A DNA stretch of 64,000 bases. It comes from Flammula alnicola (taxonomy: Eukaryota; Basidiomycota; Agaricomycetes; Agaricales; Strophariaceae). The notes under the pieces are model-generated. The model worked only from the letters and a program-made list of their open reading frames with translations, ran no database searches and was not told the DNA's origin. Position numbers and translations under genes: made by a program. The stretch is from contig JADNRV010000083.1 of the NCBI GenBank assembly GCA_015499995.1, positions 62,001 to 126,000 on the forward strand, in the 5' to 3' direction. Below are positions 36,445 to 45,032 of the stretch, piece after piece. Positions within the stretch are counted from its first letter, which is position 1; each line of letters starts with the position of its first letter.

Positions 36445-38705
36445 TTACGAATCCCGTGGCGATTCGCTGATCACCTCCATAGAGCCGTAATGAATCGGAG
36501 TCGACCCATTGGCCTGCATACTCGGACTCGGAGAGATGACGAGTAACGGCGTGCGCTCTGAATCCGGTGTGTCCTTACGCCTTTCGCGCTCGACGATCCT
36601 GAACCAGATGAACAAATGAAATGAGTGATGCGTCACGAGGAGGGCCTTAAAAATAACACCAATACTGACCCTCGCATAATCGCCGACGTTGTGAGACGCC
36701 TCGCCCGTCGTTTACTTTGGTTGTCCTCGTACCTATCCGTTTCATCCACAATCTCTTCGGAAATAATTTCCTGAAATACAAGTCGTCGTCAGTAAAGCTG
36801 TATTCCGAATGTGTACATAGATCTCAGAAATGCGCACTTCGATGATATCTAAAAATTGTGATCAAGTCAGCGTCGACATTATGACAATACCTAGCATGTC
36901 AATTACCTTCAAGCGTTATAACCCCGAGAGCTCCTCCAGATATGCCAGGAGTCCGACTAATCAAAAGAAGGTGGGCTCTCCCCGTTTGGCTGATACCCAG
37001 CCATCAGCTCAGAAACACTGCCAAGGCGCGAAGACGAGGTCAGATCAGAGGACGTACAAATAGTCTAGCGCTTGGAAGCAGTTAATAGAAGGATGCGCTT
37101 CTGGCAAGATGCCAAGCGGAAGGAAGAAACAGGCAGAGCTTTGCTTGGGTCGTAGGTCAGGAGCTAATGCGCAAACTGGAGGTCATCATCGCGGAAAGCA
37201 AAAGGTAGATGTAAGAGTAAGCGCCGCATGACGTACTTTCTTGATGAGCAGAAGTCCAACGAAGGACGAAGGGTTGCCTGATTCATGAACGGGGAAGCGT
37301 GAATACCCGCTTAATAGTCTAGAGAAATCCACTCAGCAAACTCCTTGTGCGCATACGTGCCCCACAAAAGAGAGAGAGAGAAAGACGAACATGGCATCGA
37401 CAGCTTTATGGTCCAAAATGGTATCGGCACTAAGAGTCACCGTGTCCTTGATCGGCGTCATAATCGTTTCCACATTCTTGGTGTTCAACTCCAAAACGCC
37501 ATTGAGAATGGCGATTTCATCGTTACGCAGCGGTTCTTCACCGGTACGATGAAATTGGAGGAAAGACTTGAGTTCAGCTTTCTTGTAGGTATGCTGTGTG
37601 TCAGCGCCGAGAACGTAGTCGAGAAGCTTAGCAATAGGCCACGCGACTGGGGCTGATAGGAATGTCAGCAGAACTCGGGAATTTGAGGAGGCGCAGAGGC
37701 ATACCGAAAAGATACATCATTCCGAGCACCAGAGGCGCGCATGCTGCTCCTATAGACAACCCATGGCGCACGCTGACGGCTTGAGGGATAATTCTACATG
37801 ACTGTATTAGCTAAAAATAAGCGTAATGAAAACAGGCAGGACTCACTCTCTGTATCCGAAAATAGTCGTGTGAGGAGGGTGCATGCAATTCGTTTTCGGG
37901 GCAATACGTACCCAAAAATAACTGTACGAAAGGGGGGAGTGTAAGAGGTGTAAATCCAAAAAATATAGAGCGGACGAACCAATAGCGGCAGTGGAAATCA
38001 CGATGGCAGCAATACCTCCACCCAGCTGAACACGTTCATTGTGAGACCGCCTGTTCAAATTTTGACGCAGCACATACCGCGCTATCCAAGAATATTGGCA
38101 AACTTTCGTTGACGATCTACAACGCGCCAGATTCGGTAAAGGTACAGTTTGTCAAGTCTTGAACATACCACATTGCCTAATAGCAAAACCTGCGATACTG
38201 TCAGGAACGTAGACGCGACAATGAATGTAGCAACGCACCACAAGGACCCAATGACGACCTTTCTGCATCAGCTTAAGAACTATTCGCCTGTCATTACGAC
38301 GTGTCATGAAATGCAAGGTGCTCTCCAACCTTTCTGAGCGTTCTTCTTTTCCTCAAGTCCTCCGAAGATGTGGCAAGGACGCGAAGATGGAGTTCATCAA
38401 GGCCCATGAGGCCAAGGGTTAGACTAATCACAAGGATTCAGCATCCTCATACGAAAAAAGGACATTCGACAGACGTACCCCGCGAACACACCTCCAGCAA
38501 GCACAAGCCCTATGCTCATGATGAGTTTCGTCCAAAATTCTGATGAGCCAGGCTCAGCGCCGGGTTCCTCGTCAACGGGACATTGCTCAATCGGAAGTAA
38601 GGCGATGCAAGCGCGGTGCGCAGTAAGAACAACAGAGTTGGTAGATTGGATCGGCATTGACTTGAAGGCGTCGCGATGAACGAGAGTCAGTATTGCCACG
38701 GCCAA
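36445..38705 (-). CDS. CNNM/Mam3-type membrane protein, copy A (DUF21 + CBS pair)
   Basis: Begins with MAVAILTLVHRDAF at 38705. The DUF21 domain has membrane segments around [58 protein letters not shown] and [18 protein letters not shown] pair follows ([78 protein letters not shown]), then a hydrophilic tail. Family members (human CNNM, yeast Mam3) act in Mg/Mn homeostasis at plasma or vacuolar membranes. Many short exons include the 10-nt exon 37912-37921 and the 3-nt exon 37847-37849. Single bases look missing near 38342 and 37118. Unlike copies B and C, no intron separates the MTPIK and DTV codons. Frame near the C-terminus is uncertain. Confidence 0.85.
37847..37849 (-). other. 3-nt micro-exon of CNNM copy A
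   Basis: Sequence ACAG|AGA|GTGAGT on the minus strand. It completes GG|A and starts GA|A so that VIFG-E-IIPQ stays in frame. Flanking introns are 62 nt (37850-37911) and 53 nt (37794-37846). Confidence 0.75.
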
Positions 38706-38965
38706 CCACGAAAAGATGTCATTGACGGTAGTTAGGTCAGCATGATTATGTAACTAGATGATGTCATGTTGCTGTAAACCTTTGGGCGCCTATTGGGCTT
38801 ATACCCGTTCGCAGCGAGGTCTTCAGTTACCGCAAGGCACGAGATCTTTGAGTACGGAGGTACGAAATGCGGTATATCGATATTGAGTTGCTACATACAA
38901 TGAAATTCTTAAGACATGGCTGTCTACAGTAAGTACTCAGTCCTACTGCAAACTGTACATGAACA

Positions 38966-41240
38966 CTAATGTAACGAAGAAAAAAAGGAAGAAAACGTGA
39001 AGGGTAAGCTAATTAGGCTGCGAGTTAATCCTCGGAAACGTAGAGTCACTGTAACGAGTGGTGTAACCGTTCCATTCTGCAAATCAAGCGAGACGGAACG
39101 GCTGCTGATGAGCAGCGAGCTGCTCTCGTTGAATAGACCCATGATTGACGGTTTCGGCGCTCCACGATTCTGCAAGACCATCGATGAATGCTAGGAGAGA
39201 TTATACTAATAAACCGAATCACTCACCCTCGCATAATTGTCGAAGTCGTGGAGCGCCTCGCCTTGCTCTTCGAGTGATTATCTTGGAACTGGTCCGTCTC
39301 ATCAACGATCTCTTCTGATATTATTTCCTCGATTATATCTTGGTAGATCAAGTGAGAAAGAAAGGAGGTGAAATTGTTACAAGGAAGACCACATAATAGA
39401 GAGAAGAAGAAAAGCACACCCTCAAGCGTTAGCACGCCAATAGCACCTCCAGCTTGCCCTGGGGTACGACTGATGAGAAGCAGATGTGCACGACCGGTTT
39501 GGCTTAAACGCAAAACAAACCCCAATGTTAGTCGAAGAATTCTGCGTCGATAATGAGGGAAAGACACACAAGTAATCCAAGGCTTGGAAAGCGTTGATGG
39601 ACGGGAGTGCTTCAGGAAGAATAGACAGCGGGAAACTTGAGACGGGCAACGCCTGACTAGGGTCGTACGTTAAGAGCTGGTCAAAAACAGAGAGTTCTCA
39701 GTCCATATTTCCAAATCAGGTTGAGTGATAGTGAAATTTACCTTTTTGATCAGTAGAAGGCCGATGAAAGAAGTCGGTTTTCCGGGTTCGTGGACTGGGA
39801 AACGAGAGTATCCGCTTTGCAGACTATTACAATCGAATACAGTGAGTTCGGCGGCAGCAATAGTAAAGGAAGTATAAAAGAACAAACATTGCTGTAACAG
39901 CCGCGTGGTCAAGGATATCATCAGCACTCAGTATCACGACGTCCTGCAAAGTTTGTTCGTGTGAGCAGACCAACCGAGAAAAGAAAGGACCCAGAAAACG
40001 AAAAACATACTCTGAGAGGCGTCATAATCATCTCCACGTCCTTCGTATTAAGCTCCAAAACGCCATTCAGGATCGCCAGCTCATCGTCACGTAGCGGTTC
40101 TTCCGCCGAGCGGTGGAACTGCAGGAATGATTTCAGTTCAGCTTTCTTGTACATGTGGTGGGTATCCGCCCCGAGGACGTAGTCGAGCAATTTCGCTATG
40201 GGGTACGCACAGGGGCTAATGAGGTCGTGTGAGAATCAGCCAGGGAGAGAAGATAGTTAGAGATACCTAAGACAAACATCATTAGAAGGACCAGAGGTGC
40301 ACATGTCGCTCCGACCGTTAGCCCATAGCGCACGCTTATGGCTTGAGGGATGATTCTGCAAAGTGGTGAGCGGTTAAAGAGGAAGATAAATTTCTGAACA
40401 CTTACTCTCTGTCGAAAGTTTAATCGTATGAGTAAACAAAGTAAGTTGATCCAGAAGGCACTGCAGAACGACATACCCGAAAATGACTAGGAAACAGCCA
40501 TATTAGCCACCTTACTTGAGATGGCGGGTATCTGCTCACCGATAGCTGTAGTCGAGATGGCAATAGCGGCAACCCGCCTCCGAGCTGCGGATGGTGAGAA
40601 AACCCACCAGCAGGTGAAAGCCGTATATAAACTCACAGCATTGTCAAGAAAGATAGGTAAACTTTCGTTGACGATCTAAAGTATCCGATTAAAATCCAGA
40701 AGGCCTCTAGAGGAGACGGACAAACCACATTGGACAATAAGAGGACCTGTGGAGCAGTGCTGTTGGAAAACAGAGAAAAGGGGAGTCAATGATTGAGACT
40801 CACCACGAGCACCCAGTGTCGGCCTCTCCGAAGCAGATTGAGGACTTATATTTATCAGTAAATTCAGAAGAATACCCATCGTAGATAAGTCAACCTTTCA
40901 TTGCGTTCCGTTTCTCCCTTAAATCTTCTGAAGACGTCGCCAGGACACGTAAATGGAGTTCATCAAGACCCATCAATCCTAAGGTCAAGCTAGACCGACA
41001 CGATGTCATCAAATGGTGCACGCTAGGCAGGCATAATGGCATGGCCACGTACCCTGCGAAGACACCGCCAGCTAGCACAAGTATAATGCTGATAGTGAGG
41101 TGGTACCAAAACTCGCGAGAGCCCTTGTCCGTCCCCGTGTTTCCATTCGGGAGGGGAGGACTCCGAATGTACGGCGAGGCGATGGATGCCCTCACGAGCA
41201 ACATACCAAGCGCAAGCCCGTTTCTTCGAACATTAGCCAT
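38966..41240 (-). CDS. CNNM/Mam3-type membrane protein, copy B
   Basis: Starts at ATG 41240 with a signal-anchor-like MANVRRNGLALGMLLVRAS. Exons include 41053-41240, 40895-40989, 40804-40844, 40726-40746, 40637-40675, 40540-40584, 40477-40486 (10 nt), 40406-40408 (3 nt) and 40267-40355. The CBS region follows ([18 protein letters not shown], then after an intron [64 protein letters not shown]). Same role as copy A. Bases look missing near 40570 (LGGG-x-AAIAIST) and 40213 (before CAYPIAKLLDYVLG). The final exon, aligned by SSLLISS and QNGTVTP with copy A, ends near 38966, but its frame is not certain. Confidence 0.8.
40406..40408 (-). other. 3-nt micro-exon of CNNM copy B
   Basis: Sequence GACAG|AGA|GTAAGT on the minus strand. 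Introns of 68 nt (40409-40476) and 50 nt (40356-40405) flank it. Skipping it gives GSSLKP and an immediate stop instead of [11 protein letters not shown]. Confidence 0.8.
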
Positions 41241-42901
41241 CGAATAACAGTAGAGCAGCGGATGCGATTACACGTTGGATAAGGAAGGAAAAGGTGAATG
41301 AAAGAGACAGGTGGGAGATTTCGATTCGGGCGTATACTTAAGGTGGTAACCAGGCCTCGGGCGCCCAGAATCGTCCTGCCAGCTCATATATGTCAGTCCT
41401 TGAGCTAGAGTTCGGAGATCTGTAAAAGTGATGTGGAATGGATGGGTGTATCGCCACGCCCACTGGCAAAATCGTCGCAAGCGTCATTTTAGCTTGCGCG
41501 ATTTTAGCTTGTTCGTCTATTGTGGGATATCAGTATGGTAGTGACACGGAATGACAGTGTTCGGAGCTGCATACCATTGTCGTTCCGTCACGAAGAGGTG
41601 AAATGTAGCGGCAGGCTGCGTGATGTTCTACTATTTCTAATTACAGAATGCCGCGGCCACAGTTAGATTCAGATGTAAGTGGAGACTTTGGATGGACAAC
41701 GACCAAGGCTAATTATTCTGGGAAAGATACTCCAGTTGAATTTTTAGGCCATTACCTTGACTGGAAGCCTCGTATCGACAGGTGTGCGGGAAGGCCAGTG
41801 AAAAGGCGAGAAAAAAGACACGCGCCAAGTAAGAACTGTAACCGGAAATGGCCGCCAAGTCTGATAGGTCCATTATCTTGATCGCCAACACCTTATCTTA
41901 TCTTCCTGAGCAATCTTTGCTCCAGCAAAAGGCGCAAGTAGAGCAAATTCGCTGCCAAAGAGTCTTCATTACGCCCTGGTGACCACCTAGAGAGAAAGCC
42001 TTGGCTTTCGGCAAGAATGCGGTACATTCGCCGAGTCTGTGCGGGGAACCTTGCGACTACTGAGAGATTTGGGGGTCTCGGAACGGTACTACCTTATCTC
42101 TGTTTGAACATTCAAAGGACATGGTACAAGAGGACTATTGAATATTGGAGGCGGATCCGATTCAACTCCACGACCTCGAGGAATACTCGGCGCTTAGCCC
42201 CACCAGTGCGGAGCATCGCCAGCACGCGATAGTAAAGGACTATCTTTATTACTTTACCTATGAGCGTTCGAAAGCCTTGGCGCATCTATAAGGCTACGGC
42301 GCTGCTGTTATTGGACAATGGAATGCCAAGCTATCATTCATCTCTCCAGGAAGGCTGTATCGTCATTGATCGATGCCCGGGAGTATCAGAAGACTCAACT
42401 AAGGGTTTTGTGAGGCGGTAAGCTTAAGGAGTACAATACCTATGCATCTCGCTGCTCACATTTCGGCGAGTTCAAAATAATCATATACTATAAAGTAGAT
42501 CCAATGTGACCCAATGAAATCCCAAGTCTACCCGAGAAGAAAACTGTACAGCGAAAACGAGATGCGAGATAATCGGAGATGATATATGATACATAATTCA
42601 AGGAAAGTTTGGTGTTGGGGTCCAGCACCGACGACGCGTGCCGATGAATTGAGCAGTCAAGAACCGCAGGTTCTAGGCGAGGCGAGCAGAAGTGGTCCTC
42701 GCGTCGAGGCCCCTTCACAGACCATCGACGTGTCGACGTGTCTAAGTAGAAGATATCGTCGCAGCGGCCGCCGTCATAGCAAACATAGGGAAGCGCGCTG
42801 GAGTACATTTATGTATGTTTGTTGGCCCGCTGGCCAAGGGGCGAGTTCATTGCGCAGTCGAAAGGCAGAGGTAAATGGAAAGAGACAGCGCCCTGGAGAA
42901 C
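41241..42901. other. Intergenic, 1.66 kb
   Basis: Upstream of copy B and downstream of copy C. Several open frames (for example 41648-41881 and 42488-42808) show no family motif and are not supported. Confidence 0.45.
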
Positions 42902-45032
42902 TTAAACGCTGCCATACGGAGTTATGCTCGCATAGTGGGACTCGACCGACCCAGACCGGATGCGCTCGACGAGCGAGGATGTCTCCGTGAACGAGCTTGT
43001 TCGGCGTCTCCGTTCGACGATCCTACAGGTGGGAGGGGGTGGCCATTATCAGACAGGTTAGTTTATGAAGGAGAAGTGGGGCAGTGAGAACGAGCGCACC
43101 CTCCTAGCACGCTGGACGTAGTGTGCCGCCGTGCGCGTCGTTTGCTGCGATTATCCTCATATTGGTCCGTTTCATCGACGATTTCTTCCGAGATTATTTC
43201 CTGTAGTGAACAAAGCATGCAAGGGACATTTTAGGTCGAATATGATTACTAATCGGCAGCCTTACCTCAATTATATCTTCCAGAGTGATGACGCCTATAG
43301 CTCCGCCCGGAAAGCCAGGTGTCCGGCTGATCAAGAGGAGATGCGCTCTTCCAGTTTGGCTAGATATAATAATATTTTTTGTCAGTATGGCACCAAGAAT
43401 GAATTTGTGCACTCACAAATAATCCAAGGCCTGGAAACAGTTTATTGAGGGCGATGCTTCAGGTAGGATCGAGAGCGGGAACGCTGAGACCGGAAGGGCC
43501 CTTTTGGGGTCGTACGTCAGGAGCTGCAAAAAGCAGACCATATGAGAGCCTGCACTCTGCTATAAAAAAGGTGTCGGCACCGTACCGTCTTGACCAGCAA
43601 CAAGCCAATAAAGGCGTCTTTGTTTCCCTTTTCGTGCACCGGGAAGCGCGAATAGCCGCTTTGCAACCTGCACAAGCCCAGATATAAGCTGTATGAACGA
43701 CGTTAGGAGCAGAAAAGACTGACATGGCATGGACGGCGGGATAGTCCAAGGTATCATCGGCGCTGAGGATGACGGTGTCCTGAAATATCACCTTCATAAA
43801 ACCATTCAAGGCCAAGACATACGGCGGAATGACAAACCTTCAACGGGGTCATGATACTCTCGACCTTCTTCGTGTTCAACTCCAATACGCCATTAAGGAT
43901 GGTAATTTCGTCGTCCCTTAGCGGCTCATCGCCCGTCCGATGAAACTGGAGAAACGACTTGAGTTCCGCCTTCTTGTAGGTATGCTGTTCCCGCGTTCCC
44001 AGCGCGCAATCGAGCAGTTTGGCTATCGGCCATGCGATGGGAGCTGTTGGCCGTTGAATACAATACAACAGTTGTGAAAAGAAGGCCGGACTCGTACCGA
44101 GAATATACATCAGTCCGAGGACAAACGGTGCGCATCTCGCGCCGATAGATAGCCCGTAGCGCACGCTGACAGCCTGGGGAATAATTCTGTATGTCAAGAT
44201 AGTGTCAGCGCGGGGGTTCGTCGGACATGTGATCGTCAACTCACTCGCTGTGGGGAAAATCACCGAGGGTAGGTCAGGGCCATTACGACATCAAGAAACG
44301 GGAGCGTACCCGAATATCACTAGAAACACGATTAACGGCGGCGATGAAGCAGATTACCAGGGGGGCTTACCAATCGCTGTTGTGGATATGGCAATGGCGA
44401 CGTAGCCGCCTCCGAGCTGGCAATACGTCCGTCAGCGGGAAACATGCGAGGTGGCTGACGTGCTCACTGCGCTATCAAGGAATATGGGCAAACTTTCGTT
44501 CACAATCTGGGGGGACTTTGAGATGGGAATGGCAGAATATTCTCTGGGAATGACGAACCACGTTGCCTAATAGCAGAACCTGGGCACGAATGTTCATTCT
44601 GCCAGTTAGAGGCGGGGGAGAGAAACGATACGTACGACTAGAACCCAGTGTTTCCCATGCTGCATCAATTTCAACACTGCACATACGAGTCAATTTCACG
44701 GATTGTAAACCCAGTACCATCCACACCTTTCTGCGCGTTCCTCTTCTGAGAAAGGTTCTCGACGATGTCGCCAAGACACGCAGGTGCAGCTCATCCAAGC
44801 CCATGAGACCCAATGTCAACCTAATTCTCCGTCAGCCGGCGCCCAGCTCAAGCAAAAAAACCACGAACCCTGCGAAAATACCCCCAGCCAACACCAAGAA
44901 GATGCTGACAATGACATGGTACCAAAAATCTGGCGACCATGGCTCAGCCCCTGGATGGCCGGTCTTGTGCTTGTGCGGAGACGCGTTGACAACGCGCAAA
45001 AGGAGGATAAGACTGGGAATCCGGAGCTTCAT
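42902..45032 (-). CDS. CNNM/Mam3-type membrane protein, copy C
   Basis: Starts at ATG 45032 ([20 protein letters not shown], a likely signal peptide). The same domain order as copies A and B follows: [126 protein letters not shown] and [17 protein letters not shown]. The last exon encodes [20 protein letters not shown] and YGSV before TAA at 42902-42904. It has the 10-nt exon 44310-44319 and the 3-nt exon 44245-44247. One base looks missing near 44761 (before [11 protein letters not shown]). This copy has the clearest C-terminus of the three. Confidence 0.85.
44245..44247 (-). other. 3-nt micro-exon of CNNM copy C
   Basis: Sequence CACAG|CGA|GTGAGT on the minus strand, with introns of 62 nt (44248-44309) and 58 nt (44187-44244). 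The first base differs from copies A and B (CGA against AGA), but it still encodes Gly-Glu across the joins (GG|C, GA|A). Confidence 0.75.

Follow-up and report, generated by a model that had tools for sequence, protein, structure and literature searches.

Three tandem CNNM genes share a candidate exon of three nucleotides

The window analyzed here, a stretch of 64,000 nucleotides (nt) of DNA from the mushroom Flammula alnicola (Agaricales) whose coordinates are used throughout, contains on its minus strand three tandem genes of the CNNM (DUF21/Mam3-type) family, hereafter copies A, B and C, each with a candidate exon of only 3 nt in its interior (Table 1). In the numbering of copies B and C each gene comprises 16 exons, with exons 10 and 11 fused in copy A, and, single-base shortfalls aside, the lengths of exons 3 to 12 are common to all copies (41, 21, 39, 46, 10, 3, 89, 206, 56 and 82 nt). 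The 43 introns scored span 48-81 nt, and all of them start with GT and end with AG; the 67-nt intron following the 11-nt exon 15 of copy A lies outside this set.

The GenBank model of copy C (P0001), a hypothetical protein and the top-ranking protein match, fits the CNNM/DUF21 transmembrane domain (PF01595) with 96.1 bits against a curated cut-off of 28.4, and the CBS domain with 24.3 bits, barely above the cut-off of 24.0. The protein P0010 has no Pfam CBS match, yet aligns with the cytoplasmic CNNM2-4 chains. As members of the CNNM/CorB/Mam3 family, the three mushroom genes are predicted to encode Mg2+ transporters. Scoring of 19 candidates, which gives a lower bound, placed 23 of 24 whole-genome matches in the three tandem copies and the remaining one on contig C201, where a distant CNNM paralog (G000:C201:189500-196500, L017) encodes the contiguous sequence FAEIIPQ in a single open stretch; the C201 gene therefore has no microexon at this glutamate (Glu).

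The three copies present the same succession of elements: a 10-nt exon (exon 7), an intron of 62-68 nt, the 3-nt exon (exon 8), an intron of 50-58 nt, and an 89-nt exon (exon 9) starting with A-ATY. An AG to the left and a GTRAGT donor to the right border the 3-nt exon in every copy, and the element fits the definition of an ultra-small microexon as an internal exon of at most 15 nt. Copy C has CGA in place of AGA, a silent substitution confined to the glycine (Gly) codon, and the two bases that open the Glu codon are identical in the three genes. These coordinates, lengths and letters bear out a first-pass annotation of the locus, made from the sequence, which had described a 10-nt exon (V-I-F and GG) beside a 3-nt exon in three tandem CNNM genes; the motif it assigned to copy B is mistaken, since this copy reads FGEIIPQAISVR and does not end in AVSVR.

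Table 1. Coordinates of the CNNM genes and of the exons and introns discussed in the text.
Feature	Position	Strand	Length (nt)	Remarks
Copy A	36838..38657	minus		Model covers exon 1 through exon 15 (11 nt); exon 16 begins at 36770, outside the model; exons tagged with their GT/AG flanks
Copy B	39110..41240	minus		Modelled exons 1-16, last exon partial
Copy C	42963..45032	minus		Modelled exons 1-16, last exon partial; GenBank model BDZ97DRAFT_1836104 (P0001)
Copy A exon 7	37912..37921	minus	10	TTATTTTTGG; encodes end of V, I, F, and GG of Gly
Copy A intron before 3-nt exon	37850..37911	minus	62	GTACGT..ATACAG
Copy A exon 8	37847..37849	minus	3	AGA; finishes Gly codon, starts Glu codon
Copy A intron after 3-nt exon	37794..37846	minus	53	GTGAGT..ATGTAG
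Copy A exon 9	37705..37793	minus	89	Starts A-ATT ATC CCT (IIPQAVSVR)
Copy B exon 7	40477..40486	minus	10	TCATTTTCGG
Copy B intron before 3-nt exon	40409..40476	minus	68	GTATGT..CGACAG
Copy B exon 8	40406..40408	minus	3	AGA
Copy B intron after 3-nt exon	40356..40405	minus	50	GTAAGT..TTGCAG
Copy B exon 9	40267..40355	minus	89	Starts A-ATC ATC CCT
Copy C exon 7	44310..44319	minus	10	TGATATTCGG
Copy C intron before 3-nt exon	44248..44309	minus	62	GTACGC..CCACAG
Copy C exon 8	44245..44247	minus	3	CGA; Gly codon silently changed, Glu kept
Copy C intron after 3-nt exon	44187..44244	minus	58	GTGAGT..ATACAG
Copy C exon 9	44098..44186	minus	89	Starts A-ATT ATT CCC
Copy A exon 2	38330..38423	minus		One base short relative to sister copies
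Copy A exon 13	37058..37163	minus		One base short relative to sister copies
Copy B exon 6	40540..40584	minus		One base short relative to sister copies
Copy B exon 10	40011..40215	minus		One base short relative to sister copies
Copy C exon 2	44727..44820	minus		One base short relative to sister copies
Copy A exon 4	38169..38189	minus	21	
Copy B exon 4	40726..40746	minus	21	
Copy C exon 4	44559..44579	minus	21	
Copy A fused exons 10 and 11	37391..37652	minus		Intervening intron absent
Copy A exon 15	36838..36848	minus	11	ATATCATCGAA

Only inclusion of the 3-nt exon yields the family motif

Splicing solutions were enumerated for GT-AG introns, allowing up to three introns of 35-160 nt each, with GC-AG and AT-AC introns, other sizes and more than three introns left out of the enumeration. 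This procedure returned 245 parses for copy A, 242 for copy B and 328 for copy C, among which the motif VIFGEIIPQ is obtained only from a 10-nt plus 3-nt parse in every copy, as the first-pass annotation had proposed. Copies A and C, though not copy B, also admit a parse in which the 3-nt exon (TGA) is displaced by 4 nt and the encoded residues are the same. Other ways of reaching the motif were rejected, as no further enumerated parse yields it, and so was a recursive splice site (an exon of zero length), because three exonic nucleotides are needed for the motif.

Joining exon 7 directly to exon 9 maintains the reading frame, introduces no stop codon in any copy and yields FG-IIPQ in all three, contradicting the earlier statement that skipping leads to an early stop. 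The cost of the skip is one Glu and nothing more, so that a gene predictor meets no penalty in making it, and the corresponding segment of P0001 is the exact translation of exons 6, 7 and 9 of copy C, with exon 8 left out.

The arrangement is seldom produced by chance. In 5000 dinucleotide shuffles of the sequence between the flanking exons, AG-NGA-GT with room for both introns appeared in 0.3% (A), 0.54% (B) and 0.2% (C) of cases, and in none of the 5000 for any copy when a GTRAGT donor was required. Across both strands of the whole window, YAG-NNN-GTRAGT occurs five times, three of which are the 3-nt exons. At synonymous sites the paralogs are 78-81% different and at nonsynonymous sites 12-16%, the latter figure being slightly inflated by a few codons misread around the frame break in exon 2; intron identity between them is 11-47%. 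AG-NGA-GTRAGT is nonetheless retained in all three, upholding the conservation first noted for this exon, and such high synonymous and intronic divergence implies that the common 3-nt element does not derive from recent shared ancestry.

The glutamate aligns with a Mg2+ ligand

The microexon Glu aligns with Glu111 of the archaeal protein MtCorB (7m1t), with an E-value of 0.013 for this piece, weak when taken alone, and of 1.1e-14 for the whole protein. In deposited CNNM4 sequences its aligned counterpart is position 284 (E-value 7e-36), where one of them (11gq) has alanine. The likeness to human CNNM4 and MtCorB is one of family and aligned Glu, the exon structure having been compared for the mushroom genes only. 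PMC8242095 describes MtCorB Glu111 as invariant from archaea to humans and part of Mg2+ coordination, reports reduced transport for the E118A substitution in bacterial TtCorB, which by our own reading of the numbering is the equivalent position, and presents the human CNNM2 disease variant E357K as reversing the charge of the invariant Mg2+-coordinating glutamate. No E357 variants were found in PMC10959950.

In the mushroom genes, the Mg2+-coordinating Glu of transmembrane segment 3 (TM3) is present only when the 3-nt exon is included. Since the residue lost on skipping corresponds to this invariant ligand, a skipped mRNA would most likely encode an impaired transporter.

Transcript-like relatives retain the residue that many genome models omit

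A comparison of the same position in relatives, which the first-pass annotation had recommended, was carried out on protein models. We pooled 190 distinct relatives from three protein searches, each contributing its best 120 of more than 2200 matches; the resulting counts are of models and not of species, several species being represented by more than one. Based on their jgi/lgn source and on contigs of 1.5-4.7 kilobases, 38 of these proteins were assigned by hand as transcript-like, every listed short contig being kept. All 38 of these listed relatives contain FGE[IV], and in 23 of them the contig has under 720 bases outside the coding part, not enough for 15 introns of 48 nt. The remaining 152 models stem from genome contigs: the motif is found in 43, an exact loss of the Glu in 64, and some other alteration in 45, a few of which may be real variants. 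In all, FGE[IV][IVL]PQ is missing from 109 of 152. In six models (P0030, P0034, P0057, P0071, P0136 and P0144) the Glu position is occupied by R, G or CG, perhaps where predictors picked neighboring splice sites. A scan of viral contigs with P0010 matched 12 stretches, with no relative among them.

As a control we examined other exon junctions in 168 of the 190 proteins (132 genome models and 36 transcript-like proteins), scoring gaps within 6 residues of a junction and counting substitutions as intact. At nine other junctions, between 127 and 132 of the 132 genome models are intact, with no exact one-residue losses and 0-5 other changes. At the 3-nt exon site the same models show 53-55 exact one-residue losses and 29-30 other changes. 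With nearly everything intact elsewhere, the losses at the Glu site are not the product of generally careless annotation.

The 109 genome models lacking the motif were also paired with transcript-like matches of at least 85% identity. Among the ten best pairs, all at 95% identity or above, the Glu is missing from nine genome models, and the tenth (P0183) is without VIF. Six of the ten alignments have a single gap, at the Glu: P0134 with P0148 of Armillaria mellea (99.05%), P0059 with P0095 of A. luteobubalina (98.6%), P0143 with P0163 of Lactarius pseudohatsudake (97.7%), and the pairs P0059/P0093, P0045/P0047 and P0143/P0154; each of the four remaining pairs contains 2-8 gaps.

Models with the exact skip occur in nine orders (Agaricales, Boletales, Amylocorticiales, Polyporales, Russulales, Gloeophyllales, Sistotremastrales, Hymenochaetales and Cantharellales), one species having been placed per order. 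Read in the simplest way, these gene-model gaps, spread over nine orders of Agaricomycetes, would date the one-codon exon back at least to the common ancestor of the nine, and the relatives with Glu-less models would be expected to carry the same 3-nt exon in their DNA.

These data bear on whether the GenBank-type model could be correct, with the 3 nt skipped in vivo, a single intron running from exon 7 to exon 9, and a protein lacking the Glu. Such a skip is in frame and free of stops in all three copies, and the 64 models that read FG-IIPQ include that of copy C itself. Against these points, the single intron would measure 118-123 nt, beyond the range of the 43 scored introns, the residue removed is the one aligned with an invariant Mg2+ ligand, none of the 38 transcript-like proteins lacks it, and the donor-acceptor pair around NGA has been kept in three diverged paralogs. 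We consider it hardly credible that the GenBank-type model is right.

A probable constitutive one-codon microexon

The element is very probably a genuine, constitutively included one-codon (3-nt) microexon in CNNM/Mam3-type Mg transporter genes of Agaricomycetes, spliced as two short introns. It would accordingly be expected in the mRNA of F. alnicola, with near-complete inclusion.

Several observations weigh against this interpretation. The C201 paralog encodes its Glu inside a longer exon, and the 43 genome models bearing the Glu may either have the exon annotated or lack the introns. The transcript evidence is indirect and comes from relatives of F. alnicola; for the other 15 transcript-like contigs, size by itself leaves introns possible, and the transcript status of all 38 proteins is deduced from source and contig size. 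The protein database was clustered at 90%, so that skipped isoforms could be hidden, and the presence of the 3-nt exon in other species is deduced from gaps in gene models. Splice-site scores at the microexon are ordinary, with weakish acceptors in copies A and B: among 43 ranked sites (43 being the strongest), those of copies A, B and C rank 15, 23 and 8 for donors and 3, 6 and 28 for acceptors, and hence nothing points to special enhancement. Finally, the reading frame of the three genes is broken by exons one base short, namely exons 2 and 13 of copy A, 6 and 10 of copy B, and 2 of copy C.

Constitutive inclusion may be set against the possibility of a regulated cassette, in which the included mRNA would provide a working transporter and the skipped mRNA a full-length subunit without its ligand, acting as a possible brake. 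Preservation of the frame on skipping, the alignment of the removed residue with a Mg2+ ligand, the crystallization of MtCorB as a homodimer (PMC8242095) and the report of a regulated microexon in Trichoderma Xlr2 (PMC11121469) are all compatible with such a scheme. It is nevertheless very unlikely, as no skipped forms occur among the 38 transcript-like proteins, though the database clustering could mask minor isoforms, and the introns look ordinary by their splice sites, intronic regulatory elements beyond these not having been searched for. A class-wide extension of the scheme, in which skipping would serve as a one-residue off-switch, with cells in low Mg2+ (or in a particular developmental state) making ligand-less subunits that silence the dimer, is in our judgment highly improbable; were it true, the off-switch would be the reason why the mushroom class keeps this Glu on a separate exon, and the single-residue "error" of the 64 gene models would in part be real biology.

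The broken frames raise the further possibility that all three genes are pseudogenes, with the microexon surviving only as a fossil at this locus. The excess of synonymous over nonsynonymous differences indicates selection on the rest of the coding sequence, contrary to what old pseudogenes would show, and all 43 scored introns retain GT and AG ends. All five differences are single-base shortenings that, judged by eye, lie within or next to homopolymer runs, the form that consensus errors of long reads usually take, and they look like such errors rather than decay. We therefore regard pseudogene status as unlikely; it would bear only on whether this strain uses the exon, as the frame breaks leave the 3-nt exon itself untouched. 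At the shortened exon 2 of copy C, P0001 evades the broken frame by means of a donor located 16 nt further downstream. Relatives, P0002 for instance, have ENLAQKRNAQK at this point, and the altered stretch is likely a second fault in the P0001 model.

Splicing of the constitutive microexon may require no more than two ordinary short introns recognized across the intron, a mode in keeping with their small size, which is typical of the introns in these genes. Splice sites located 3 nt apart are sterically unlikely to be used simultaneously. The acceptor of the first intron and the donor of the second would thus probably never be engaged together, and the two introns would probably be removed one after the other, either removal leaving the splice sites of the remaining intron intact. 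The three nucleotides so joined would close the Gly codon and open the codon of the Glu predicted to coordinate Mg2+ at the pi-helical turn of TM3.

Comparison with known microexons

Even smaller exons are on record, and 3 nt is not the lower limit of splicing that the first-pass annotation had supposed. A constitutive 1-nt exon is described in Arabidopsis APC11 (PMC4674806), and land plants more widely have APC11 and VPS55 microexons of 1 nt, which annotations likewise omit (PMC8831610). The mushroom exon resembles these plant exons in being ultra-small, conserved and unannotated, and a GTRAGT donor is noted for the VPS55 exon as well; unlike them, it has 3 nt, so that skipping keeps the frame and drops a single conserved residue. 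At the time of PMC4674806, the smallest alternatively spliced exon known had 3 nt. A mouse Ncam exon (cited in PMC8042270) is likewise exactly 3 nt long; Ncam is an animal gene, whereas the mushroom exon is apparently constitutive and encodes an invariant residue.

Among fungi, the P450 genes of Phanerochaete chrysosporium, another Agaricomycete with small introns (45-55 bp) and tiny exons, have a shortest exon of 6 bp, or two amino acids (PMC1184071), against 3 nt here. Xlr2 of Trichoderma virens, encoding a transcription factor, contains a functional microexon with glucose-dependent inclusion (PMC11121469). The Xlr2 exon and the mushroom exon are both microexons of filamentous fungi; glucose-dependent inclusion is a feature of Xlr2. 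PMC3990503 mentions microexons once, as a mapper setting. No earlier report of a fungal CNNM microexon was found in the openly licensed literature searched, represented mostly by titles and the openings of abstracts. The CNNM exon adds a fungal case to the known ultra-small microexons, one notable for its apparent age, its conserved metal ligand and the frequency with which it is omitted.

Other features of the gene structures

A second small exon, the 21-nt exon 4, is also kept in all copies. The intron between exons 10 and 11, 67 nt long in copy B and 58 nt in copy C, is absent from copy A, where the two exons are joined precisely. The 11-nt exon of copy A, flanked by introns of 58 and 67 nt, is required for the DIIEEIISEE sequence of the family. 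The corresponding region forms one exon in copy B and contains only the second intron in copy C, differences that point to unequal intron gain and loss between the paralogs.

Significance

These genes provide a clean fungal example of a one-codon exon, in which a conserved metal ligand has most of its codon. Its omission constitutes a recurrent annotation fault: among the 152 genome-contig models, 109 are without the conserved motif and 64 without the Glu only, and proteins expressed or modelled from such entries would probably be impaired. The 3-nt exon also lends itself naturally to testing how the splicing machinery uses sites separated by 3 nt. Should the class-wide interpretation hold, the short-intron spliceosomes of these fungi have coped with a 3-nt exon across many orders.

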